64,000 nucleotides of DNA, from NCBI GenBank assembly GCA_016650295.1, contig JAENWA010000096.1, positions 1 through 64,000 of the forward strand, in the 5' to 3' direction. Shown here in pieces: positions 8,070 through 59,043 of this stretch. Made by a program: the position numbers and the translations under genes. The notes below the pieces were generated by a model. The model saw only the letters and a list, made by a program, of their open reading frames with translations, made no database searches and was not told the DNA's origin. Every line of letters begins with the position of its first letter. The first letter of the stretch is position 1. Source of the DNA: Desulfuromonadales bacterium. GTDB lineage: Bacteria > Desulfobacterota > Desulfuromonadia > Geobacterales > Pseudopelobacteraceae.

Positions 8070-9122
8070 ATGGAGCGTTCACAGATGACAGTACGAACCA
8101 TGCTGAAAATCCCGGTTCTTTCTATCGTACTAACGTTGTTGCTGGCCGCCACGCCGATCTTCGCTGCGCCACCTTCCGGGAAGAATGACACCCTCCCCTC
8201 CGGCAAACGTGTCCTGATCATCAGCATCGACGGCATGCGTCCCGACGTGCTCCTGCGCGCCAAGGCACCGAACATCCGCGAACTGACTACCCACGGCTCG
8301 TTCACCTTTTGGGCCGAATCCACCGATCTGGCCATCACCCTGCCGACTCATGTCAGTATGCTTACCGGGGTCTCCCCCGCCAAACACCGCATCACATGGA
8401 ACGACGACCGGCATGCGGGTTCCGGCGTTCTCAAGGTGCCAACCATATTCGACCTGACGAAAAAGGCCGGTTATTCCACCGCCATGGTGGTCGGAAAGCA
8501 CAAGCTCTGCATCATGGCCAGGCCGGGCAGCGTGGAGTGTACCATGGCATCCGGCACAACCGGCGAAGACGCGCTCGCCATTTCTGCGCTGGCAAGCGAA
8601 CTGCTGCGCAGGCAGCAACCGCAGGTCATGTTCGTGCATTTTCCCGATCCCGACACTGCGGGCCATGCTTCCGGATGGGGCAGCCCGGAACAGGTCGCCA
8701 GCGCCGACAGGGTCGATCAAGGTATCGGTATGCTCATGTCTACGTTGCGGGAGTTGGGTCTGAAGGATAAAACATTGATAATAATTACCGCCGACCACGG
8801 TGGTTCCGGCCGCTCACACGGTGCCAGGGTTCCTTTCAGCCACTTCATTCCCTGGATTGCAGTTGGTCCGGGAGTTCGTGAAAACTACGACCTGACCAAC
8901 GAACCGAAGCTTGCGGTACATGTTGAAGACGTGTTCGCTACTGCGCTTAATTTTCTGGGTGTCCCCATTCCGGCGGTCACGGACGGCAAAGCAATTCTCT
9001 CGATCTACGGGAGCAGTTTTAGTACCTTTGAACATCCAAAACCAACCCCCCTCAGTCCCCCCTTGTCAGGGGGGAAGCATTTGATAAGGGGAGGTTTGGA
9101 GGGGTTTGCTGCGAAAGAATAA
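8070..9122 (+). CDS. Alkaline phosphatase/nucleotide pyrophosphatase family protein
   Basis: VLIISIDGMRPDVL, LPTHVSMLTG, VHFPDPDTAGH, ITADHGGSGRSHG; signal peptide. Confidence 0.9.
   Translation: MERSQMTVRTMLKIPVLSIVLTLLLAATPIFAAPPSGKNDTLPSGKRVLIISIDGMRPDVLLRAKAPNIRELTTHGSFTFWAESTDLAITLPTHVSMLTGVSPAKHRITWNDDRHAGSGVLKVPTIFDLTKKAGYSTAMVVGKHKLCIMARPGSVECTMASGTTGEDALAISALASELLRRQQPQVMFVHFPDPDTAGHASGWGSPEQVASADRVDQGIGMLMSTLRELGLKDKTLIIITADHGGSGRSHGARVPFSHFIPWIAVGPGVRENYDLTNEPKLAVHVEDVFATALNFLGVPIPAVTDGKAILSIYGSSFSTFEHPKPTPLSPPLSGGKHLIRGGLEGFAAKE
9041..9113. repeat. C/G-rich inverted repeat overlapping the phosphatase 3' end
   Basis: aaccaacccccctcagtccccccttgtcaggggggaag ... ataaggggaggtttggaggggttt; similar type to 6415-6502. 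Confidence 0.7.
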
Positions 9123-9135
9123 CTGTTCAAACGTG

Positions 9136-10185
9136 CTACTTCTTATCCACATCCACCGGACAAGGTTTTTCCACTGCCGGCGTTTCCAGTACCTTGACTT
9201 TTTTCCAGCTCTTGTCTGGATTGTAGACCGTGATGGCTTCGGCAAGGCGCCGGGTGTTTTTGCCGAGATTTTTTTCGAATATGATCCCCTCCTGATTTAC
9301 CACAAAGGTCATTACACCGGAATTCCCGTATTCTGCGGGGTAGGCCACCAGTGCAAATCCGAGGATCATCTTGTCCTTGACCACATAATTATAGGGACCA
9401 CCCTTGGCGTGTTTTCCCTGTCCCTTGAGAATCTTGAAATAATATCCATGAAACGGTGAAAGATTGCCGTCGGTGCTGTATCCTTCCTTGGCGGCACTGG
9501 CAATCAGCGGCCCGAGAGGGCTCTGCTGCTCACCCTCTTTGGCTTCCCAGTACAGGCCGTCCCGATTGCCCGGTGTACTGATGAAACGCTGCGCGAATTC
9601 GACCCGGCCGGCGCCGCGGCAATCCTTGCTGGCGTATTCATGCTGTGCATCGTCAAACGCATCGATCACATCGATGACCTGCAATTCGTTGCGGCCGATC
9701 CTCCGGTTGAGAATCTCCTTCTTTCCTTTCCCGATGTCAAAGCCCCAGCCGCTGCCCTTCTTGACAATCGGGATCGGCATGGACCAGTCATCGGCACCGA
9801 TATGCAGGATCATGGTGCCTGCGGTCCTGGCCTCCAGAGAATGCTTCTGCTCGTAGGAGGCGACGAATTTGTCACGTCCCGCATTGTCGGCCACGCTGTC
9901 GCCCGAAGAGACCACTTCCCTGCTGCCCGGGCCGAGAATAGCCAGCATGGCATCCAGATCATCCGCCTTGGCTGCGCCGACCAGCGCCTGTACCGCCTCA
10001 TCGGGCGACGGGAACAGTTTTTGCCGTACCTCCGCTGCTCCGGAATCCCGGGATGACGCGGAAATCAACAGAACCGCTGTAACGAGACAGACCAGCAGGG
10101 CAGTCCGGACCCTTCCGATATTCACATTCAATACTGGTATATTCATGGTTTCTCTCCTGGTTGAGTCAATGACCCGACTGAACAT
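9136..10185 (-). CDS. DUF2950 family protein
   Basis: KLFPSPDEAVQALVGAAKADDLDAMLAILGPG...PLGPLIASAAKEGY...FHGYYFKIL. Confidence 0.85.
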   Translation of the reverse strand: MFSRVIDSTRRETMNIPVLNVNIGRVRTALLVCLVTAVLLISASSRDSGAAEVRQKLFPSPDEAVQALVGAAKADDLDAMLAILGPGSREVVSSGDSVADNAGRDKFVASYEQKHSLEARTAGTMILHIGADDWSMPIPIVKKGSGWGFDIGKGKKEILNRRIGRNELQVIDVIDAFDDAQHEYASKDCRGAGRVEFAQRFISTPGNRDGLYWEAKEGEQQSPLGPLIASAAKEGYSTDGNLSPFHGYYFKILKGQGKHAKGGPYNYVVKDKMILGFALVAYPAEYGNSGVMTFVVNQEGIIFEKNLGKNTRRLAEAITVYNPDKSWKKVKVLETPAVEKPCPVDVDKK

Positions 10186-45376: not shown

Positions 45377-45603
45377 AGATGTTGTCCACAAATTATGTTG
45401 GTAACCTTGTTTATGGATTATAGCAAACGGTGGATATTATGGCGAGAAGGTTGGTTTGAACAGATTTTGGGCAGAAAGGCTATCGCGCGATTACTTTTTT
45501 AATGAAGACTCATTCCAATGTCATTTCGCCTCATTTTCTGGTATGTAAACACAATTAAACACAGCACCAAGACCGTTATGCAGATTGAAAGGAGTGTAAG
45601 ACC

Positions 45604-45849
45604 AAAGAGCAGTATATAGGATCAGCGTCTGGTGAAGAAGGATTTTGGGGGCGCTGGCAGAACTACATACAGACTGGCCACGGCGGCAATGTGGGACTCA
45701 AGAGCCGAGATCCGAGCGATTATCAGGTTTCGATCCTGGAGGTTGCAGGTACATCTGCAACAACTGATGATATTCTGACCATGGAAGGCCGGTGGCAGTC
45801 TAAACTGCAAAGCAGGGAAATGGGGCTGAACCGCAATTTGTCACGTTAA
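45604..45849 (+). pseudogene. C-terminal remnant of a GIY-YIG-type nuclease protein
   Basis: Frame reads KEQYIGSASGEEGFWGRWQNYIQTGHGGNVGLKSRDPSDYQVSILEVAGTSATTDDILTMEGRWQSKLQSREMGLNRNLSR*; no start or N-terminus. Confidence 0.75.
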
Positions 45850-45976
45850 GACTACAACCGAACCAAAGCGGCATCGGATGAGCAACTGCAACACATACTA
45901 TAACCCGGTCTGGCCATCCCCCCGATTTGGAGGTTGACCGGGGTCTGGTCAACAAAGAAGTTGGTCTCGGAAGAAT

Positions 45977-46789
45977 ATGACAGCAAAAATATTTCAAACA
46001 TTCAGGGAATTACGTGACGATTTAGGCAAGATAGATGCCTCGTTTGCTTACATTGCCTTGTCTTTAAAACACCTTGATTACAGTGCATCTCAGTCGGCAA
46101 ATCGGCTCAACTTCCTGGAGGAAGTTGCGGAGCGTCATTCAATTAGAGTTCTTCTCCAGAATGATGATGATCCACAGAAAAACGTTTACTTTTCTGCGGC
46201 TGTTGCAGTCCATTCCGAATGGGATCGCTTTTTATTTGGGCTTATGGATGAATTAAGTGATTTCAATTATGAGCCTATTGACAAGGGGCGTAGACGTGAT
46301 GGTGAATCAAGGCTGGCATTCTTTCTTCGATCCATGAAAGTAATTGCTCCAAACAAATTAGACGAATTACCGCAACCACTTATCGAACTATGTGAATACT
46401 TAAGACTCCTTAGAAATTATTATGCTCATCGTCTCACTACGCCTCAAAAGGAATGCGTAGAACTGTTTAATAAAATAAGCAAAAAAATCAATACTTGGCC
46501 GAGTAAATTCGGAAATCTTAAATTTTCATCTGAGTGTTGTCAGCCTGCGTTTGATGATGTGCTCATCTTGACAATAGCCGTAAAACTTCTTGCAGAGGAA
46601 ATATGTACCCGATTGGCTCCAGTCCCTGACGTATTGTTGGAGCATCCAGCAACAAAAGATTTTATTGCCCGTGAAAAAAGCCCCATGCCTGAAAGTCGTT
46701 TTCAATTGTTCCTGAATGATCGGTTCGGTCTTGATAGGATTACTGCTAATCAACTTTCTAAAAAACTAGTGAATAAGGCGTTGGTGTAG
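45977..46789 (+). CDS. HEPN-like protein (RNYYAH motif), possible defence nuclease
   Basis: 270-aa helical protein; LCEYLRLLRNYYAHRL matches the HEPN RX4H pattern. Confidence 0.65.
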   Translation: MTAKIFQTFRELRDDLGKIDASFAYIALSLKHLDYSASQSANRLNFLEEVAERHSIRVLLQNDDDPQKNVYFSAAVAVHSEWDRFLFGLMDELSDFNYEPIDKGRRRDGESRLAFFLRSMKVIAPNKLDELPQPLIELCEYLRLLRNYYAHRLTTPQKECVELFNKISKKINTWPSKFGNLKFSSECCQPAFDDVLILTIAVKLLAEEICTRLAPVPDVLLEHPATKDFIAREKSPMPESRFQLFLNDRFGLDRITANQLSKKLVNKALV

Positions 46790-46879
46790 TGGTCGCATAC
46801 CCCCTCGATGTGCACTCGAACCAGCTTCGAGAGTAGATCAAGGGCGAGGAGCTTGGTTCGATTCCAACACGCCTTTCCA
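46775..46879 (+). tRNA. Atypical tRNA-like gene (105 nt, enlarged anticodon/variable domain, encoded CCA)
   Basis: Acceptor AAGGCGT/ACGCCTT (7 bp), TG, D-arm GTGT-AGTGGTCGC-ATAC, T-arm TTGG-TTCGATT-CCAA, 3' T-CCA; 51 nt between D and T arms. Confidence 0.6.
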
Positions 46880-46975
46880 AAAAAGATGAAGTTACCAACC
46901 AGGAAAATGGACACCGGCCGCCCATAGGAACCGGACGGGCGAGTATTTCCCGAACCGTTGAACAGAGGAGAAAAT

Positions 46976-47749
46976 ATGCCACCGACAGGCGAAGAAATCC
47001 GGAGAGTACTTCTGGAAGTAATCAGTGAATACTCCGACAGAGATGCATCGTTTCAGTCCGGTACAATTTTAGGTGAATCTCAACGCAGACTCGGAATCAA
47101 TCATAATGTAAGCATGGAACAAGCGTTACTGACACTATGGCATGATCTGTTTAGAACTGGTTACCTTGCGTGGGGCTATAATCTTTCCAATCCGGACCCC
47201 CCATTTTGCCACCTTACAGACCAAGGGAGGCGAACCTTACAGCATTTAAGCCGTGATCCTGCTAATCCTGATGGATATCTTCATCATTTAAACCAAACAG
47301 CCACATTAAATCCAATTTCAAATTCTTATCTAAAAGAGGCTCTCATATCTTTTAACACCAACTGTTATAAAGCTGCTGCGGTTATGATAGGGGCTTCAGC
47401 GGAAAGTATTGTGCTTGAGTTGAGAGACACGCTGGTAGCTAAGATTATTTCTTTGAGCAGAACACCAGCTAAGGACCTGGAAGATTGGAGAATCAAGAAG
47501 GTTCTAGATTCATTAAAAAAGGAGATCGACGCAAAACGGCCCTTAATTCTCACTCCATTATGGGAAGCCTACCAAGGCTATTGGTCTGCTTTTACGCAGC
47601 AAATACGTACCGTTAGAAACGATGCTGGTCATCCTACAAATATTGACCCAGTGACAGAAGAGTCCGTTCATGCATCGCTTCTTATTTTTCCGGAATTAGC
47701 AAAGCTCGCAAATGACTTGTCATCTTGGATTACAACACATTACACATAG
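46976..47749 (+). CDS. HEPN-like protein (RNDAGH motif)
   Basis: QQIRTVRNDAGHPTNIDPV resembles HEPN/DUF4145-type C-termini; ORF with RBS agaggagaaaat. Confidence 0.65.
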   Translation: MPPTGEEIRRVLLEVISEYSDRDASFQSGTILGESQRRLGINHNVSMEQALLTLWHDLFRTGYLAWGYNLSNPDPPFCHLTDQGRRTLQHLSRDPANPDGYLHHLNQTATLNPISNSYLKEALISFNTNCYKAAAVMIGASAESIVLELRDTLVAKIISLSRTPAKDLEDWRIKKVLDSLKKEIDAKRPLILTPLWEAYQGYWSAFTQQIRTVRNDAGHPTNIDPVTEESVHASLLIFPELAKLANDLSSWITTHYT

Positions 47750-47854
47750 TTAAATATCAAATTGTTTGCTAAAAGTGGGTGGGTTTTATAATCGGAAAAA
47801 TTCCATAACTGTAACGTTTGAACCAATGTAGTCTAATTTACAGGAGGCTTTGAA

Positions 47855-48499
47855 ATGGCAAATGTACCATCCAAAATAGAAACCGCTTTGAAAATACTAG
47901 ACATCTTTGTCAACCACTTTAATTGCAGGGCCTCACACGTATTAAGAGTGAACAACTTTTTGGCGGTATGGCACAAAAAAGGGCTGCATTGGGATGATTT
48001 TATTCCAGGAATGGAATTCGCCGCAGAGCAAAAATGGGTTGAGATATTGCCTAACGGTTACTCCTTCAAATTAACAGAAGAAGGTTTTGCAACATCGCCG
48101 CAACAAAATTCTGAAATAAACGCTAAACCGGCCATTGTAAATAAGAATTACATTAGCATTGGTCAGGCAATTAACTCGCCAATTACCCAGGGTATCAACT
48201 CAACTCAAACTGTAACGACCAATTACACACCTATTTCAAAAGACGAGCTGGTAGACTTCGTCAATTCTTTTCGAGAGCATATCTCAGATTTAAAACTTTC
48301 GACCCAAGAAGAAAGAAAAGTAAACGCTCAATTGGCCACAATTGAAGCCCAATTACTCGACGAACCAAATCCTGAAGTATTAAAACAAACCTTTGCCTCC
48401 ATTAAAAACATTACTGAAGGTGCTATTGGAAGTCTTCTAGCAACAGCCGCACAACCAGGAGTATGGGCTGCAATTCAATCTTTTCTCTCTAGTTGTTAA
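47855..48499 (+). CDS. Hypothetical protein, N-terminal winged-helix-like, C-terminal helical/hydrophobic
   Basis: RBS caggaggctttgaa; linker NYISIGQAINSPITQGINSTQTVTTNYT. Confidence 0.6.
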   Translation: MANVPSKIETALKILDIFVNHFNCRASHVLRVNNFLAVWHKKGLHWDDFIPGMEFAAEQKWVEILPNGYSFKLTEEGFATSPQQNSEINAKPAIVNKNYISIGQAINSPITQGINSTQTVTTNYTPISKDELVDFVNSFREHISDLKLSTQEERKVNAQLATIEAQLLDEPNPEVLKQTFASIKNITEGAIGSLLATAAQPGVWAAIQSFLSSC

Positions 48500-48634: not shown

Positions 48635-49090
48635 ATGAATCGGTTCAACAGCATCCAGCGCCAAGACCGGCCCAATAGCCGCCTCTCTCAAGAGATATTC
48701 GAAAGGATCGCCCGTGAGGGAAGAAAATTTGGATTAGGCTTAGTACTTTCTTCTCAACGTCCATCGGAACTTTCACAGACTGTTCTGGCTCAATGCAATA
48801 CATTTATTCTTCATCGGCTTGTAAATGATAAAGATCAGGACCAGGTTAAACGACTGGTCCCAGATAATGTAGGTGCACTCCTCGACGAACTTCCAAATCT
48901 ACCAACTCGGAAAGCAATCATGCTCGGTTGGGCAACACAGATTCCTGTAATCATGAATGTTCGTGAACTTCCGGACAGTCAGCGACCACACTCAGCCGAC
49001 CCACAATTCTGGGATGTTTGGACTAGAAGTAAAAAAGGTGAACGACTGATGAATTGGGATAAAATCGCTGACGAGTGGCAGGAAAGCTGA
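48635..49090 (+). pseudogene. C-terminal fragment of HerA-like ATPase
   Basis: SREIFERIA-type region SQEIFERIAREGRKFGLGLVLSSQRPSELSQTVLAQCNTFILHRLVNDKDQDQVKRLVPDN; Walker A and B regions absent upstream. Confidence 0.78.
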
Positions 49091-49243
49091 CAAGCCCGGA
49101 GGGGGCGCTAGAAAGCATATCAGAGGTTCAATGCTCGAGATTTCAAAAATATAAAACACATAATTTCCAACTCACGGCTGGACCGGTCCTAAACCCGACC
49201 GATCAGCCTTGCGTTTTACATGCAGAAAAGGACCCACAACCCA

Positions 49244-50800
49244 ATGATCGAAGACATCAAAAAAACCCTTTGGGCCACCGCCGACAAGCTGCGCGCCAAC
49301 ATGGACGCTGCCGAATACAAGCATGTCGTGCTTGGCCTCATCTTTGTCAAATACATCTCCGACACCTTTCAGACCCGCAGTAACGAACTTACGGAACGCT
49401 TTGCTGATCCTGATGACGAGTATTACATTCAGGATGCAGATTCTGCTGGAATAGTAAGCGAGCTGGAAGACCGTGACTACTACCGGGAAGTCAACGTCTT
49501 CTGGGTGCCGGAAGCTGCGCGCTGGGAAAACCTGCGGGCACAGGCCAAGCAGCCCGATATCGGCAAACGCATCGACGATGCCCTGACACTGATCGAGACC
49601 GAAAACCCCAAACTCAAAGGTATCCTCGACAAACGCTATGCCCGCGTGCAACTTCCTGATGGCAAGCTGGGCGAACTTGTGGATATGGTTTCTACCATCG
49701 GATTTGGGACCACCGGGCAGAGTGCCCGCGACCTGCTCGGCCAGGTGTATGAATATTTTCTCGGCCAGTTTGCCAGTGCCGAAGGCAAGCGTGGCGGCCA
49801 GTTCTACACCCCTGCCAGTATCGTTAAGACGCTGGTATCCATACTCGCACCGCATCAGGGACAGGTCTATGACCCCTGCTGCGGTTCGGGCGGCATGTTT
49901 GTGCAATCGGAAAAATTCATCGAAGCACATGGCGGCAAGATCGGTGATGTGTCTATCTACGGCCAGGAATCCAACCCAACCACCTGGCGGCTGGCGGCGA
50001 TGAACCTCGCCATTCGCGGTATCGACTTCAACCTGGGCAAAGAACCTGCCGACACCTTTGTCCGCAACCAGCACCCCGATTTGCGCGCCGACTTCGTGCT
50101 GGCCAACCCTCCCTTCAATATTTCCGACTGGTGGCATGGCAGCCTGGAAGGCGACCCGCGCTGGGTGTATGGCACACCGCCGCAAGGCAACGCCAACTAC
50201 GCCTGGCTGCAACATATCCTCTACCACTTAAAAGCTCAGGGTAGAGGCGGTATCGTACTGGCCAACGGCTCCATGTCCTCCAGCCAGAACTATGAGGGCG
50301 ATATCCGCCGCGCCATGGTCGAGGCCGACAAGGTGGAGGTCATGGTTGCCATGCCGGGCCAACTGTTCTTCAATACCCAGATCCCGGCCTGCCTCTGGTT
50401 TCTGGTCAAACAGAAGAGCAGGCGTCAGGGTGAAGTGCTGTTCATCGACGCCCGCAAACTGGGCACCATGATCAGCCGGGTGCAGATCGAGTTTACCGAT
50501 ACCGATATCCAGAGAATCGCCGACACCGTCCTTGCCTGGCGTTGTGATGGTGAAGCCAATGTCGAATATGCCGACGTGGCCGGCTTCTGCCGGAGTGTGA
50601 CGCTGGCCGAGATCGCCGAGCATGGTCATGTCCTGACACCGGGGCGCTATGTGGGTGCTGAGGCGGTTGAGGATGATGACGAAGCTTTTGTTGAGAAAAT
50701 GCAGCGGTTGACTGAGACTCTGGGTGAACAGATGGCCAAGGGTGCGGAACTTGATGGGCTGATCCGGAAGAAGCTGGGAGGGCTGGGGTATGAGTTCTAA
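49244..50800 (+). CDS. hsdM: Type I restriction-modification system, DNA methylase subunit M
   Basis: [55 protein letters not shown]. Confidence 0.96.
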
Positions 50801-52130
50801 TTCGCCCATTCAGTCTGAGTTTCCCATAACCCCGATTGGGTTTGGCGCAAATTTTATTTCTGGATATGCCTTTAAGAGCCAGGATTTCTGCGAAAAAGGG
50901 CTTCCGGTTATAAAAATCAAAAACATTCAGGATCGGATCGTTACTACTGCTAGCTCTCAGTGCGTACTACCTGATCTAATTACGGAGAAACTGAAAAAGT
51001 TCCTACTGGATAACGGCGATGTACTTATTGCAATGACAGGGCAAGGCAGCGTTGGTCGTGTAGGCAGGCTTCAATGCGTAAAAAATATGCGCCCTGCGAT
51101 GAACCAACGAGTTGGAAAGTTTGTCGCAGATGAGGCGTCACTTCACAAAGATTTTTTGTATTACGTCATAAGTTCAGAAACTTTTGAGAACCATTTATTT
51201 GCTATGGGATCTGGGAGTGGCCAGCCGAACCTGAGTCCAGCCGCGATTCTGTCGGTTGGTATTCCTCAGCCTGCATACCAGGAACAAGTTGCAATCGCGG
51301 AAATATTGAATGCTCTTGACGACCGCATCGCCCTCCTCTGCGACACCAACACCACCCTCGAAGCCATCGCCCAAGCCTTGTTCAAATCGTGGTTTGTGGA
51401 CTTCGACCCCGTCCGCGCCAAACAGGAAGGCCGCGAACCGGAAGGCATGGACGCCGACACCGCCGCGCTCTTCCCCGATAGCTTCGAGGAATCGGAACTG
51501 GGGTTGGTGCCGAAGGGGTGGCGGGTTGGAACGGTTGCAGATATTGGTGAGGTCATTTGCGGTAAAACACCACCGACATCGGAACCTGCAAATTACGGCG
51601 ATGATGTTCCGTTTATCACGATACCAGACATGCACAATCTTTTAGCCGTCACTTCAACCAACAGGTCATTATCAACGCTTGGTGCTAATACACAGAAGAA
51701 GAAAACGCTACCACCTGGATCAATTTGTGTGTCTTGTATCGCAACGGCTGGCCTTGTAGTGCGAGTAACGACGCCATCACAAACAAATCAGCAAATAAAT
51801 AGTGTGGTGCCATTTACAAAATGGGGCTATTCCTTCCCACTCTTTACCCTCAGACGAATTGGCGATGCCGTGCGTGCTGGTGGTTCTGGTGGTTCGGTTT
51901 TTCATAACCTGAGCAAGTCAGGATTTGAAAAATTAAAAGTCTTGTTCCCTATTGAACAACTTACCGTTGTTTTTGGTGAAATCATTGAACCTATTATTGA
52001 GAAAATCATTAAGAATCAAAAGCAAGCCCAAACCCTCGCCACCCTCCGCGACACATTGCTCCCCCGCCTGATCTCCGGCCAGTTGCGCCTGCCGGATGTC
52101 GAAGCACTCATTGAGGAGGCCACCGCATGA
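50790..52130 (+). CDS. hsdS: Type I restriction-modification system, specificity subunit S
   Basis: Two TRD-like regions with conserved helices ([39 protein letters not shown]). Confidence 0.93.
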
Positions 52131-53089
52131 GTTATCAGCCCCCCTACACCATCACACCACAAATATTGCAGCGGGTAGCAGAGATCGTCGAGCTGTTGGC
52201 CCGTTGGTCGGTGTCAGGTGACTCTGCCCTGTCGCCGCAGTTGCGGCGCAACAACCGTATCCGCACCATTCAGGCATCGCTGGCCATCGAAAACAACACC
52301 CTGAGCATCGAGCAGGTGACCGCCGTACTGGAAGGGAAGCAGGTGCTCGGCTTGCCGCGCGAAATTCAGGAGGTGAAGAACGCCTTTGCCGCCTATGAAC
52401 AGTTGCCGGAGTGGCAACCTCATGCCAGCGCAGATCTGTTGGCAGCGCATGGCCTGCTGATGGCTGGTCTGGTGGATGAAGTCGGTACGTTCCGTACTGG
52501 CGGTGTCGGAGTTTACAACGACAAGGGACTGGTGCATATGGCGCCGCCCGCTGCTCGTGTCGCCGGGCAAATGTCTGATTTGCTGGCCTGGCTGGCATCG
52601 GCGCCGGTGCATCCTTTGATTGCCAGTTGCGTGTTCCATTACGAATTTGAGTTTATCCACCCTTTTGCCGATGGCAATGGCCGCATGGGGCGTTTGTGGC
52701 AAACGCTGATCCTGAGCCAGTGGCAGCCGATGCTGGCGTATCTGCCGGTTGAATCGTTAATCAGATTTCGACAGGTTGCCTATTATCAGGCCTTGGCAGA
52801 GTCGGACAAGACGGGAAATTCAACAGTTTTTATCGAGTTCATGTTGCAGGCGTTACAGGATACCCTAACGGAAGCCCTTTCAAAAACGTCGGTGAAAGCG
52901 TCGGTGAAAACGTCGGTGAAAATCATTGCCGAGCTGCGACAGAACGGTTTGCTGACCATTCCGGAACTCGCCAAAATCATCGGCGTCACAACCCGATCCA
53001 TTGAACGTAATCTGCAAAAGCTGCAGGAGGAAGGAAGGTTGCGTCGGGTCGGGGCAGACAAGGGCGGCCATTGGGAGGTAGTGAAGTGA
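52127..53089 (+). CDS. Fic family protein with C-terminal wHTH
   Basis: HPFADGNGRMGR Fic motif; SIEQVTAVLEGK; C-terminal HTH. Confidence 0.92.
   Translation: MSYQPPYTITPQILQRVAEIVELLARWSVSGDSALSPQLRRNNRIRTIQASLAIENNTLSIEQVTAVLEGKQVLGLPREIQEVKNAFAAYEQLPEWQPHASADLLAAHGLLMAGLVDEVGTFRTGGVGVYNDKGLVHMAPPAARVAGQMSDLLAWLASAPVHPLIASCVFHYEFEFIHPFADGNGRMGRLWQTLILSQWQPMLAYLPVESLIRFRQVAYYQALAESDKTGNSTVFIEFMLQALQDTLTEALSKTSVKASVKTSVKIIAELRQNGLLTIPELAKIIGVTTRSIERNLQKLQEEGRLRRVGADKGGHWEVVK
52886..52921. repeat. 12-bp tandem repeat ACGTCGGTGAAA in fic
   Basis: acgtcggtgaaagcgtcggtgaaaacgtcggtgaaa encoding TSVKASVKTSVK. Confidence 0.8.
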
Positions 53090-53134
53090 CTGAAATAAGC
53101 CGACTAATCGTTTGTCGCCGACATCTCGGAACGG

Positions 53135-53446
53135 ATGGGCTACCTCTCGGCACTTGAGCCGGAGCAAGGACGCTCCCCCCAAGTCACCCCTCAAGTCACC
53201 CCCCAAGTCGAGCGGCTGATGGAGACGCTGGTTGGCGACATGTCCCGAGACCAATTACAAATGGCCATTGGCCTGCAAGACCGCAAGTCGTTCCGCGAGC
53301 TCTATCTTGCACCGGCATTGGCGGCCGGATTGATCGAGATGACCATTCCTGAAAAACCGAACAGCCGGTTGCAAAAATACCGGTTGACTGACCTGGGCAA
53401 ATCGTGGCTGTCACAAAGGGATGAGCAGATTTGTAGGTTGGGGTGA
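53135..53446 (+). pseudogene. C-terminal wHTH fragment of a Fic/AlbA-type protein
   Basis: TPQVTPQVTPQVERLMETLVGDMSRDQLQMAIGLQDRKSFRELYLAPALAAGLIEMT; N-terminal domain missing. Confidence 0.6.
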
Positions 53447-53530
53447 ACTGTTGTATCGTGAACCCCAACATTACGACGCTGGCAAGACTAAAACCGTTGG
53501 GGTTCGTTGCTCTTACCCCAACCTACGAAA
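53432..53530. repeat. REP-like element flanking RAYT (left)
   Basis: gtaggttggggtgaac...gaaccccaacattacgacgctggcaag...ccgttggggttcgttgc...accccaacctac. Confidence 0.8.
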
Positions 53531-53544
53531 ACAGGCGTGGGAAT

Positions 53545-54068
53545 ATGAACTATAGGCGGGCAAAAACTGAAGGTGGCACCTATTTTTTCACGGTCACGCT
53601 GGCTGACCGGAGGAAATCGGCACTTGTGGAACATGTTGATCTGCTCCGTTCTGCCATCCGTCTGGTAAAAGAACGGCATCCATTCACTATCGACGCAATT
53701 GTAATAATGCCAGAACATCTTCACACGATCTGGACTTTACCAAAAGGGGATAAAGACTACCCAACTCGATGGGCACTCATCAAAGCTGGTTTCTCCCGTG
53801 CTTTGCCGAAGGGCGAGGCGATAAGTGAGAGTCGCCTCGCCAAGGGTGAGCGTGGAATCTGGCAACGTCGTTACAGGAGCATCAAATTCGTGATGACGAG
53901 GATTTTGCACGACATGTTGATTACATCCATTTCAACCCGGTAAAGCACGGTCATGTGGCGAGCCCGATTGACTGGCCATTTTCTTCAATTCATCGGTTTG
54001 TAGCAGCGGGGACATTACCGACTGATTGGGGGGCATCTGAAGAGATTTCGGGTAAATTTGGAGAATAA
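53545..54068 (+). pseudogene. REP-associated tyrosine transposase (RAYT, Y1 family), frameshifted
   Basis: NYRRAKTEGGTYFFTVTLADRRKS...IVIMPEHLHTIWTLP...GIWQRRY; after a 1-nt frame change near 53875 continues HQIRDDEDFARHVDYIHFNPVKHGHVASPIDWPFSSIHRF. Confidence 0.88.
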
Positions 54069-54072
54069 GAAT

Positions 54073-54223
54073 CGTTGGGGTTCGTTGCACTTACCCCAAC
54101 CTACGAAAAATACGCTTCTGTAGGTTACGGGTGAACGGTCGTATTGTGAACCCCAACATTACGTCGCTGGCAAGATTAAACCGTTGGGGTTCACGGTGAG
54201 ACTGTTCACCACCAACCTACGAT
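54073..54223. repeat. REP-like element flanking RAYT (right)
   Basis: cgttggggttcgttgcacttaccccaacctacgaaaa...gtgaaccccaacattacgtcgctggcaagattaaaccgttggggttcacggtg. Confidence 0.8.
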
Positions 54224-54251
54224 AATGAATTACGAAACCCTCGGAGAAACC

Positions 54252-57200
54252 ATGACCGAAGACCAACTCGAACAGGAAACCATGGGCTGGCTGGCCGAAG
54301 CCGGCTACAGCCATTGCTACGGTCTGGACATTGCCCCGGATGGCTCTGCACCTGAGCGCAGCAACTACAACCAGGTGCTGCTGGTAGGCCGACTGCGGGA
54401 GGCGATCAACCGGCTGAACCCTTTGGTACCTCCAGTGGCACGCATTGATGCCCTGCAACAAGTGCTGAACCTGGACACGCCGGTGCTGCTGGCTGCCAAT
54501 CGCGCCTTCCACCAACTGCTGGTCAATGGTGTTCCGGTCGAGTATCAGAAGGATGGCGAGACACGCGGCGACTTTGTGCGGTTGATCGACTTTGCCGAGG
54601 TAGAGGCGAACGAATGGATGGCGGTGAACCAGTTTTCCGTCAAGGGTGCAAAGTACACCCGCCGCCCGGACATCATCCTGTTCATCAACGGCCTGCCGCT
54701 GGTGCTGCTGGAGTTGAAGAATCCTGCCGACGAGAAGGCCGACATCTGGAAGGCCTACGATCAGATCCAGACCTATAAAGAGCAGATACCGGATGTCTTC
54801 CAGTACAACGAACTGCTGGTAATCACGGACGGAACCGAGGCGCGCCTGGGTTCGCTCTCTGCCAACGTCGAACGCTTTATGGCCTGGCGTACTATTGACG
54901 GCCTGACGCTTGACCCGCTCGGCCAGTTTAACGAGCTTGAGACGCTGATTCGTGGTGTGCTGGCCCCGGCCTTTCTGCTGGATTTTCTGCGCTTCTTTGT
55001 GCTGTTCGAGGATGACGGCACCCTGGTCAAGAAGATCGCCGGGTATCACCAGTTCCACGCGGTACGTTCGGCCATTGAGCAGGTAATTGCGGCATCCCGC
55101 CCTGGCGGTGATCAGAAAGGGGGCGTGGTCTGGCATACCCAGGGATCGGGCAAGAGCATCACCATGACCTGCTTTGCAGCGCGGGTGATGCGCGAGGCGG
55201 CGATGGAGAATCCCACCATCGTGGTCATTACCGACCGCAACGATCTGGACGGGCAACTGTTCGGGGTATTCTCTCTGTCGCAGGAGTTGCTGCGTGAACA
55301 GCCGGTACAGGGTGAAACGCGGCAGGACCTGCGGGCCAAGCTGGCCAACCGGCCATCGGGGGGGATCGTCTTTGCCACCATCCAGAAGTTCATGCCGGGG
55401 GAGGATGAAGACAGCTTCCCGGTCCTGTCCGACCGCCACAACATCGTGGTGATCGCCGATGAGGCCCACCGCACCCAGTACGGCTTTGAAGCCAGGTTCA
55501 AGGGCGATTCCAAGGGGTATCAGGTGGGCTATGCCCAGCATCTGCGCGATGCGCTCCCTAATGCAACCTTTGTGGCTTTTACCGGCACCCCTGTAGCATC
55601 CGAAGACCGCGACACACGGGCCGTGTTTGGCGATTACATCAGTATCTACGACATGCAGCAGTCCCGCGACGATGGGGCGACTGTGGCGATCTATTTTGAA
55701 TCACGCCTGGCAAAGTTGGGGTTGAAAGAAGACATGCTGGCGGACATCGACGCCGAGGTGGACGAACTGGCGGAAGATGAAGAGGACGATCAGCAGGCCC
55801 GGCTCAAGAGCAAATGGACGGCGCTGGAAAAGGTAGTCGGTGCCGAACCGCGTATCAAGCAGGTGGCGGCTGACCTGGTGGCACACTTTGAAGAACGCAG
55901 CCAGGCCCAGACCGGTAAGGCGATGGTGGTCGCCATGAGCCGCGACATCTGCGTCCATCTCTATAACGCCATCATTGACCTGCGCCCGGAGTGGCACGAC
56001 GAGGACCCGGAAAAAGGCGTGATCAAGGTCGTGATGACCGGCTCAGCCAGCGACAAGCCATTGCTGCGACCGCATATCTATTCCAAGCAGGTCAAGAAGC
56101 GCCTGGAAAAACGCTTCAAAGATCCGGACGATCCGATGCGACTGGTGATCGTGCGGGATATGTGGCTGACCGGTTTCGATGCCCCCTGTGTGCATACGAT
56201 GTATGTGGACAAGCCGATGAAGGGGCACAACCTGATGCAGGCCATCGCCCGCGTCAACCGGGTGTTTCGGGACAAGCAGGGCGGACTGGTGGTGGATTAC
56301 ATCGGCATCGCCAATGACTTGAAACAGGCGCTCAAGGAATATACCAACAGCAAAGGCCGTGGCCGGCCGACTGTCGATGCCCACGAAGCGTATGCGGTGC
56401 TGGAAGAGAAGCTGGACATCCTGCGCGGCATGCTGCATGAGTTCGACTACAGCGGCTTTCTCACCGGCGGCCACGGCATCCTGGCCAAGACTGCCAATCA
56501 TGTCCTGGGGATCAAGGACGGCAAGAAACGCTTTGGCGATACCGCGCTGGCCATGTCCAAAGCCTTTACGCTCTGCTGCACTCTTGATGAAGCCAAGGCC
56601 GTGCGCGAAGAGGTGGCCTTCTTCCAGGCGGTCAAGGTGCTGTTAACCAAGCGGGAGATCAGCACCAAGAAGCGCACCAATGAAGAGCGCGAGCTGGCGA
56701 TCCGCCAGATCATCGGCTCGGCGCTGGTCTCGGAAGAAGTGGTGGATATTTTCCAGGCGGTAGGTCTGGACAAGCCGAATATCGGCATCCTGGATGATAA
56801 CTTCCTGAATGACGTGCGCAACCTGCCGGAACGCAATCTGGCGGTGGAACTGCTGGAGCGACTGCTGGAAGGTGAGATCAGGGCGCGCTTTGCCACGAAC
56901 GTAGTGCAGCAGACCAAGTTTTCGGAACTGCTGGCCAACGTCATCCTGCGCTATCAGAACCGGGCCATCGAAACCGCCCAGGTGATTGAAGAACTGATCG
57001 CCATGGCCAAGAAGTTCAAGGAAGCCATCGGCCGGGGCGAGGAACTCGGACTCAATAACGATGAACTGGCCTTCTATGATGCACTGGCCAACAATGAAGA
57101 AGCGGTCCGCGAGATGGGTGACGAGATCTTGAAGAAGATTGCCCACGAACTAGCAGAGAGCCTGCGCCAGAACATCAGCGTAGACTGGTCGGTGCGGGAT

Positions 57201-57329
57201 AACGTGCGGGCCAAGCTGCGGCTGATGGTGAAGCGGATTCTGCGAAAGTACAAGTATCCGCCACACCGGCAGGAAGCAGCGGTGCAACTGGTACTGGATC
57301 AGGCGGAGACGCTGAGTGCGGAGTGGTAG
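54252..57329 (+). CDS. hsdR: Type I restriction-modification system, restriction subunit R
   Basis: [20 protein letters not shown] (nuclease), [43 protein letters not shown]. Confidence 0.96.
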
Positions 57330-57624: not shown

Positions 57625-57977
57625 TGGTGGAGGTGAGGGGAATCGAACCCCTGTCCGAAAGACCTACAAACTGAATTACTACACCGTTAGTCAATTGCTC
57701 GATTTAGCCGGTGTGCTGCGCACTTGACAAAGCAGCAAACCGGCGGTCCCGTTGATCTCGGGTCACGCTACGGGCGTCGCGCATCCCTATCCGGTAGTGA
57801 ATGACGCCCCCGTTTTACCACCGGCATCTCAATTGGGGGCGCCTGTTAAGCAGCTAGTGCAACAGGAGTGTTGTAGTTGTCGGCAATTAAGCCGTTGCAG
57901 GTTTATTAAGGTCGGCCGCCTGCCCCGACCCGGTGCAATCCAGAAATTCACTCCCCCGTCGAAACCTTTACACCCCC
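57625..57977 (-). ncRNA. ssrA: tmRNA
   Basis: Minus strand begins GGGGGTGTAAAGGTTTCGACGGGG, tag reading frame GCCGACAACTACAACACTCCTGTTGCACTAGCTGCTTAA (ADNYNTPVALAA*), ends TTCGATTCCCCTCACCTCCACCA. Confidence 0.96.
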
Positions 57978-58630: not shown

Positions 58631-59043
58631 AACAGACTGTCCCTGCAAAGGGAATGCAATCTTTTGCAGCCGGAATGTTTCCGGATCGTAACGATTAGGT
58701 ATTCAAATACAGGTATTTGGCGATTGACAAACACGCCGTGCAGGTCTATAAACAGCATATATCCTCGTTAGCGGAGGCGTTTGCACAAACACAGGCTACT
58801 GCCCAAAAATGTCGAAAGACGCCAATGGGTAGACCAGGTATTGTCGGCTTAAGGCTTTACCTAAGGTAGCTGGTTCTTTTAGTACGTTAGAAGATTTAAC
58901 TTCGTTAACGTACTTATCCTGTTTATCAGGGCAACCTACGTTGTGCACTGCCAAAAGTCAACCAGTGGGGAATCGGTTCTTCTGCGTGCGCACAAAGGCC
59001 TTTTCTCTGAAAAGGCCTTTTTTTTATTTTTCCGGGATGACAG

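Follow-up and report, generated by a model that had tools for sequence, protein, structure and literature searches.

What kind of gene is a tRNA-like sequence that has an aberrant anticodon domain and begins inside a protein-coding gene? The stretch of DNA analysed here (64,000 nt, hereafter the window) contains such a sequence at positions 46775-46879 on the plus strand, overlapping the 3′ end of a gene for a HEPN-like protein. Sequence comparison indicates that the locus is a conserved two-part unit, consisting of the HEPN-like gene and a tRNA-shaped RNA. The existence of relatives, the overlap of RNA and gene, and covariation within the inserted part of the RNA together argue for such a unit rather than a decayed tRNA, an allo-tRNA or an integration scar.

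The window RNA and its relatives have a cloverleaf with an acceptor stem, D and T arms and, in all but one copy, CCA. The parts listed in the preliminary description (a 7-bp acceptor stem AAGGCGT/ACGCCTT, T8 and G9, a D arm, a T arm with the loop TTCGATT, then T and CCA) fall exactly within 46775-46879 (+). The 5′ acceptor strand (46775-46781) pairs with 46869-46875, and all seven acceptor pairs show covariation. The 3′ strand continues into T73 and an encoded CCA (46869-46879). The T arm (CTTGG-TTCGATT-CCAAC, with a C.C mismatch as its outermost pair) occupies 46852-46868, and the D arm (GTGT-AGTGGTC-GCAT) occupies 46784-46798. The distance of 51 nt between D and T arms given earlier is correct for a D stem GTGT/ATAC, whose 3′ strand lies at 46797-46800; the alternative stem GTGT/GCAT leaves the 7-nt D loop AGTGGTC, a loop pattern also found in two relatives (L007 and L169). 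Acceptor and T stems comprise 7 and 4 pairs with one mismatch in the window RNA, and 6-7 and 3-5 pairs in the other members.

ARAGORN run without introns calls no tRNA at 46775-46879, and the only Rfam match of the window RNA is to tRNA-Sec (15.8 bits, cut-off 47). The Rfam tRNA model (RF00005) accepts all five relatives with their inserts included (30.3-54.4 bits, cut-off 29), and the window copy fails it. By fold energy alone the whole 105 nt are unremarkable (z -1.38, 20 of 200 shuffles as good). A consensus scan of the plus strand from 45600 to 47100 found no promoter-like site, and no terminator-like site after the RNA.

We identified five relatives of this RNA in Geobacter-like bacteria, one Pseudomonadota genome and one Bacteroidota plasmid, which with the window copy gives a small set of six sequences. 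The HEPN-like protein is rare: among 196 related genomes, one other encodes it (G135, 26% identical over the match), and this gene also has a tRNA-like sequence with a long arm at its 3′ end (locus L007). A DNA pattern made from the window and G135 RNAs matched 35 loci in a collection of 84,980 species. Two of these are members, namely L186, which is the L007 sequence, and L169, a new copy in a Geobacter sp. contig. The other 33 were rejected by their fold and comprise tandem ordinary tRNAs, chance matches and intron-type tRNAs in archaeal contigs.

Protein searches extended this set. Searching plasmids with the G135 protein identified three homologues, in Bernardetia (Bacteroidota), Methylobacterium and Rhizobium. 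The Bernardetia gene (L223) carries the RNA at its 3′ end. By model and by eye, the RNA is absent from the 3′ ends of the homologues on Methylobacterium pMRAD03 (L224, 3938-4885) and Rhizobium p_2 (L225, 3848-4834), and the HEPN-like protein can thus exist without it. Plasmid pMRAD03 also contains an ordinary tRNA-Met about 3.2 kb from the homologue. A five-protein profile run over 277 genomes of the class recovered G000, G135 and G024; the last of these is from the window genome's family and carries the RNA (L228). A six-protein profile run over 398 genomes, drawn from the phylum to which a Methylococcaceae contig belongs, added G848, which we therefore took as Pseudomonadota and which carries the RNA as well (L229).

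Four of the six homologues identified by protein searches (L007, L223, L228 and L229, but not L224 or L225) thus have the RNA at the 3′ end. That the neighbouring gene belongs with the RNA had gone unseen in the preliminary description. The RNA thus accompanies HEPN-like homologues in different phyla. At L169, the ORF upstream of the RNA runs into the contig end, which truncates its protein, and no HEPN relationship was recognised for it; about 140 bp at this contig end recur at six other places in the same genome. CCA is encoded in five of the six RNAs and is missing from the Bacteroidota copy.

The anticodon arm sets these RNAs apart. In all six members it forms one closed helix, about 20 layers long, and each triplet at the anticodon place is caged there by its own complement. 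In the window RNA the extended arm covers 46801-46845 and consists of the anticodon stem, the 3-bp caged anticodon, a G.G mismatch, a 10-layer apical stem and a 5-nt loop. The triplet GAT (46807-46809) pairs with ATC (46837-46839), and the insert between the anticodon position and A37-A38 measures 30 nt (46810-46839; 27-35 nt across the six members). The same order recurs in every member: a C-rich stem (27-31), T32, Y33, the triplet, G, an apical stem of about 10 layers, then a G, A or C opposite that G, the triplet's exact complement, and A37 A38. The six triplets and complements are GAT/ATC, CAA/TTG, GGA/TCC, CAG/CTG, CAC/GTG and CAA/TTG. An open 7-nt anticodon loop with U33 is lacking throughout the set: the triplet is paired inside the closed helix in six of six members and residue 33 is C in three (the window RNA among them) and T in three. 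The apical loops are the most variable part (CCAGC, ATTATTGCAT, ATTT, GGAGCC, about 10 nt, and AAT).

Neither of the folds previously suggested for the insert is the best one. RNAfold instead gives a single long hairpin that continues the anticodon stem (CCCT.GAT.TGC.CTCGAA [CCAGC] TTCGAG.GTA.ATC.AGGG), with single mismatches as its only interruptions. Taken alone, this hairpin has a fold energy of -19.7 kcal/mol (z -2.94, equalled by 0 of 200 shuffles), and the trimmed window arm reaches z -4.41 (0 of 300). Arms of five of the six members fold at z -4.4 to -6.9 relative to shuffles (0 of 300 in each case), and the Bernardetia arm is weak on its own (z -1.73, 23 of 300 as good). Long-arm folds of G135 (z -4.51, 1 of 200) and L169 (z -4.29, 0 of 200) were similarly well separated from shuffles.

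Models of the RNA detected members that had not been used to build them. A model built on the window RNA alone (R1) scored G024 at 47.3 bits (E 1.2e-10), L169 at 39.8, L007 at 38.4 and Bernardetia at 34.4 bits; an ordinary tRNA-Met reached 25.0 bits and ordinary-length tRNA matches 31-34 bits, so R1 scores alone cannot part all members from tRNAs. Run over the 277 class genomes, R1 returned the window RNA and tRNAs of ordinary length but neither G135 nor G024, so the filtered search has false negatives. A second model (R2) was built from five members with the G848 copy left out. It scored this copy, which is independent of its training, at 72.8 bits (E 1.3e-19). The training members scored 67.6-102.2 bits (window 81.5), and no other match in the loci tested went above 49.2.

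Covariation extends into the insert. We padded the six-sequence alignment by hand and checked that each row is an exact stretch of its locus. In this alignment 94.6% of cells are paired, compared with 69.5% in shuffles and 33-51% in slid controls, and 24 of 34 pairs have changes on both sides. The insert helix taken alone is 93.6% paired, with both-side changes at 11 of 13 pairs, and none of 500 shuffles reaches it; this shuffle count is not a probability. The structure was partly derived from the same sequences, and the G848 copy is the cleanest test. The check proposed with the preliminary description, a search for homologues and for covariation in the insert, thus gave a positive answer on both counts.

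The gene upstream of the window RNA (45977-46789, +) encodes a 270-aa HEPN-like protein with the motif R-N-Y-Y-A-H, a predicted RNase partner of the RNA. The HEPN Rx4-6H motif with a polar residue after R is present as R-N-xxx-H in seven of seven aligned homologues, with R, N and H invariant; the homologues are otherwise 18-21% identical to the window protein. No fitting family for these proteins was found in Pfam, PADLOC or NCBIfam, and a PDB sequence search gave a best E of 0.096, which is not meaningful. An AlphaFold2 model of the window protein is all-helical (pLDDT 75.6, pTM 0.70). Foldseek found no match to this model at E ≤ 0.001. The best two of the 50 VIA-align rows listed are the HEPN RNases Csm6 (Z 6.2, rmsd 4.5, 132 aligned) and HepS (Z 6.1, rmsd 4.6, 139 aligned), both under Z 8 and hence below the level proving a fold. 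This likeness to HEPN RNases is suggestive only, and the predicted HEPN assignment rests on the motif together with a mid-confidence model.

As had been noticed, the first 15 nt of the RNA (AAG GCG TTG GTG TAG) are the last four sense codons and the stop of the HEPN-like ORF; the stop TAG lies at 46787-46789, which corresponds to element positions 13-15. The upstream stop codon falls inside the RNA in all six members, at element positions 13, 45, 7, 8, 12 and 8. From this position, an RNase P cut at the 5′ end of the RNA would be expected to remove the stop codon from the message.

In the window the neighbours of the unit include an AbiTi-like gene and a type I restriction system, and at L007 a type I restriction enzyme gene lies next to it. 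At L229 the unit sits between attC-like sites identified by eye (1371-1475, 2369-2436 and 2755-2815), so the pair of HEPN-like gene and RNA looks self-sufficient, which would fit a mobile cassette containing the two together. A cassette next to it encodes an Imm53 protein.

Several further features were observed in the window. Directly downstream of the RNA, the region 46958-48499 encodes a DUF4145 protein (E 3.9e-5) and a weakly AbiTi-like protein (PADLOC E 2.5e-6), which could be a second defence pair. A row of genes follows at 48635-57329 (a HerA C-terminal fragment, HsdM, HsdS, a Fic-like protein, a REP-associated tyrosine transposase and HsdR) and ends beside a tmRNA at 57625-57977, forming an island at ssrA. 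Just 5′ of the HEPN-like gene, 45640-45850 appears by eye to be a coding remnant, perhaps the end of a GIY-YIG type protein. An M-box (ykoK leader) magnesium riboswitch lies at 58757-58976 (140 bits).

Searches of open PMC papers turned up no HEPN gene accompanied by a tRNA-like RNA. One of the closest parallels is AbiF/Abi_2, in which a HEPN-like protein gene also lies beside an RNA, and AbiF-Cd, a HEPN-like protein, is described in the available text as neutralised by RCd22 RNA through direct binding (PMC12373285). The abiF RNA described there is upstream of its gene and has two repeated motifs, whereas here one tRNA-shaped RNA overlaps the 3′ end of the gene. Searches for Abi_2 (Pfam) in the window protein and its six homologues, and for abiF (Rfam) in the window and the relatives, were negative. 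Type III antitoxins (ToxIN, CptIN and TenpIN) are, in the same source, upstream tandem repeats folded as pseudoknots (PMC12373285). An RNase toxin and an RNA antitoxin on one transcript would be a logic shared with type III systems, but toxin fold and gene order differ, as here a single RNA overlaps the 3′ end of the predicted toxin gene.

Mimicry of tRNA is also known from YrlA, a Y RNA, where it is not known to be built from an extended anticodon arm. In the portion of the literature consulted, the tRNA-like domain of YrlA is uncut by an anticodon nuclease and is proposed to inhibit the nuclease competitively (PMC7790460). YrlA resembles the RNA described here in mimicking tRNA and differs in being a separate gene in the rsr-yrlBA-rtcBA RNA-repair operon, outside any nuclease gene (PMC7790460, available part). 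Other HEPN proteins act on tRNA themselves, as PrrC and RloC are HEPN anticodon nucleases with a tRNA target according to the text available (PMC3710099). The HEPN motif is shared with PrrC, RloC and Gifsy-1 HepS, the last being among the best structural rows listed. The sources for these proteins, as far as available, report no RNA partner gene, and for PrrC and RloC there are other domains that are fused to the nuclease or control it.

Allo-tRNAs differ in another respect. In the consulted part of a review of non-canonical tRNAs, the 8/4 or 9/3 allo-tRNAs have altered acceptor and T stems and keep their anticodon loop, while the anticodon arm is called highly conserved in size (PMC7609411); in the RNA described here the stems are near 7/5 and it is the anticodon arm that is changed. 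The same part reports that an allo-tRNA pseudogene of Edaphobacter C40 overlaps an ORF, with a suspected toxin-antitoxin or transposon link, and a word search of the available text returned neither 'extended' nor 'decoy' (PMC7609411). The suggestion that the window RNA is allo-tRNA-like finds no support: its acceptor and T stems are neither 8/4 nor 9/3, and both a long variable arm and a free anticodon are lacking.

These comparisons lead us to propose a HEPN RNase toxin paired with a tRNA-mimic RNA antitoxin that is freed from the toxin's own mRNA by tRNA-processing enzymes. We give this reading, built on sequence comparison and analogy, roughly one chance in two. In this model RNase P and 3′-end processing would free the RNA from the HEPN message. 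The freed RNA would resemble the substrate of the HEPN protein (a tRNA or a tRNA anticodon arm) but resist cleavage, and by binding the protein it would keep it inactive, much as RNA antitoxins do in type III systems. As release of the RNA takes the stop codon away from the message, each transcript would yield either antitoxin or a toxin message that still has its stop. Ribosomes reaching the end of the gene would unfold the RNA, thus tying toxin supply to antitoxin supply. If a phage stopped host transcription or attacked tRNAs, the RNA would run short, and the HEPN RNase would then attack tRNA or other RNA and halt growth. Among the options raised in the preliminary description, 'tRNA decoy or bait' fits the comparative evidence. 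In favour of the toxin-antitoxin pair are the RNA at the 3′ end of four of six homologues, the detection of L228 and L229 by models built without them, the covariation, the stop codon inside the RNA in every member, the self-sufficient look of the L229 unit, the terminator-like sequence seen by eye after the L007 CCA, the restriction or AbiTi-like neighbours at the window and L007 loci, and the precedents of AbiF with RCd22, PrrC and RloC. Against it stand the two of six protein homologues (L224 and L225) that have no RNA, the cut L169 ORF that was not recognised as HEPN, and the usual form of type III antitoxins as upstream tandem repeats, where this RNA is single and downstream.

The sequences that support a toxin-antitoxin pair can be read in other ways. 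The RNA might be a cis element only, a tRNA-like 3′ end that serves autoregulation by letting RNase P and 3′ processing cleave or shield the HEPN message, the freed RNA having no partner. The stop codon inside the RNA in six of six members would suit this, as would the CCA encoded in five of six and the intrinsic-terminator-like sequence seen by eye directly 3′ of the L007 CCA, but an ordinary tRNA would serve the same end, and the long, closed, covarying arm of near-constant length is left unexplained; we consider this unlikely. Alternatively, the RNA could hold or guide the HEPN protein as a sensor or activator, with an event that changes the RNA (a phage anticodon nuclease, a tRNA ligase or lost tRNA processing) switching the RNase on, or with the apical loop carrying specificity. 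The variability of this loop and the defence-gene neighbours at two loci (the window and L007) point in this direction, yet the loops are too short for a guide and show no conserved sensing motif, which makes the proposal quite unlikely in our estimate. That the RNA is a degenerate tRNA or an integration scar, a fragment or attachment site left by an element carrying the HEPN-like gene, is hardly credible. L169 does lie near an integrase-like gene and a tRNA-Met, and the window unit is in an island ending at a tmRNA. However, covariation is found in all arms, the arrangement is the same in three phyla, and a sequence search of the window's own genome found neither a second copy nor a parent tRNA; the option of a degenerate tRNA used as an integration site lacks support in particular because covariation of the insert holds over all six divergent members.

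A 'tRNA with an insertion in the anticodon loop' had likewise been among the options and also fits the comparative evidence, and it raises the question of whether the RNA is an intron-bearing pre-tRNA. The HEPN protein or another RNase would excise the insert, and an RtcB-like ligase would join the halves into a real tRNA. The insert sits precisely between A37-A38 and the anticodon, with which it pairs in the manner of pre-tRNA introns. In all six members, taking it out gives a molecule of 70-76 nt that has a 7-nt loop (T-Y-NNN-A-A) and a variable loop of 4-5 nt. ARAGORN calls none of the six unspliced without introns, all six when spliced and all six in intron mode, and the Rfam tRNA model accepts the five relatives with their inserts. 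But ARAGORN also calls tRNAs at most other excision offsets, so the splice boundary is unsupported, and its intron-mode boundaries vary. Residue 33 is C in half of the members, the anticodon changes among members while its pairing to the insert is kept, two of six acceptor stems have 6 bp, and three of six T stems have mismatches. Together these points make a spliced pre-tRNA rather improbable. To our knowledge, protein-spliced tRNA introns are not known from bacteria. They are known in archaea and eukaryotes (PMC4090602, as far as available), where the insert is also beside the anticodon and pairs with it; here the host is bacterial, and the insert directly follows position 36 rather than lying one nucleotide 3′ of the anticodon. 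Less probable still is the specific version in which proteins would remove an intron from a bacterial tRNA-like gene's transcript: a dedicated HEPN RNase encoded on that transcript would cut at the caged anticodon and an RtcB-type ligase would seal it, so that the HEPN gene would bring along its own substrate. If true, an intron with its own HEPN RNase would mean protein-dependent tRNA splicing in bacteria, or insert excision as an on/off switch of the toxin.

Additional searches outlined the range of the family. Among 141 genomes of the order, a DNA pattern of the same kind matched 8, namely the window genome, G135 and six in which the matching stretch is unrelated and looks coding. Searches for the HEPN-like protein recovered only G000 among 395 genomes of the phylum and only G848 among 145 genomes of the Methylococcaceae contig's order. 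They recovered none among 159 genomes of the phylum of an Acidobacteria contig, in a further set of 6, or in phages, viral contigs and E. coli DNA. In plasmids, the window and L229 proteins gave no match, and the L007 and L223 proteins led to the Bernardetia, Methylobacterium and Rhizobium homologues. A sequence search of phages with the window RNA gave T-arm matches at E 0.08 or worse and unrelated stretches of Gordonia phages. DNA patterns run on viral contigs identified no member; the candidates were ordinary tandem tRNAs, chance matches and other odd phage tRNAs.

These odd tRNAs include a second family in viral contigs (L008 3375-3495 +, L100 1313-1432 +, L131 8325-8442 +, L132 8520-8640 - and L062 3449-3566 -; L134 and L135 are alike). 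It has an insertion of about 45 nt between the D and anticodon arms, with a conserved CCTGnnAAGG hairpin and TTCAGCAA, followed by an apparently ordinary anticodon loop on a short stem. Three other viral contigs (L099 2028-2126 +, L108 3078-3176 + and L119) contain tRNA-like sequences with a regular GTT anticodon loop and a long variable region that is unusual for tRNA-Asn. On the minus strand of a 462-kb viral contig (L142, about 9030-9160), we observed tRNA-like ends (GGGCTTG/CAAGTCC) around a long inner region; a normal D arm is missing.

The RNA described here has no Rfam family of its own. As Rfam takes five of the copies for plain tRNA and misses that of the window, more members may hide among genes annotated as tRNA or intron-bearing tRNA. 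If the pair works as a toxin and antitoxin in the way proposed, a tRNA shape would be the safety catch of an RNA-cutting toxin, cut from the toxin's own message by the tRNA-processing machinery. Maturation of tRNA and translation would then be coupled to growth arrest or phage defence, a coupling not found in the literature searched.
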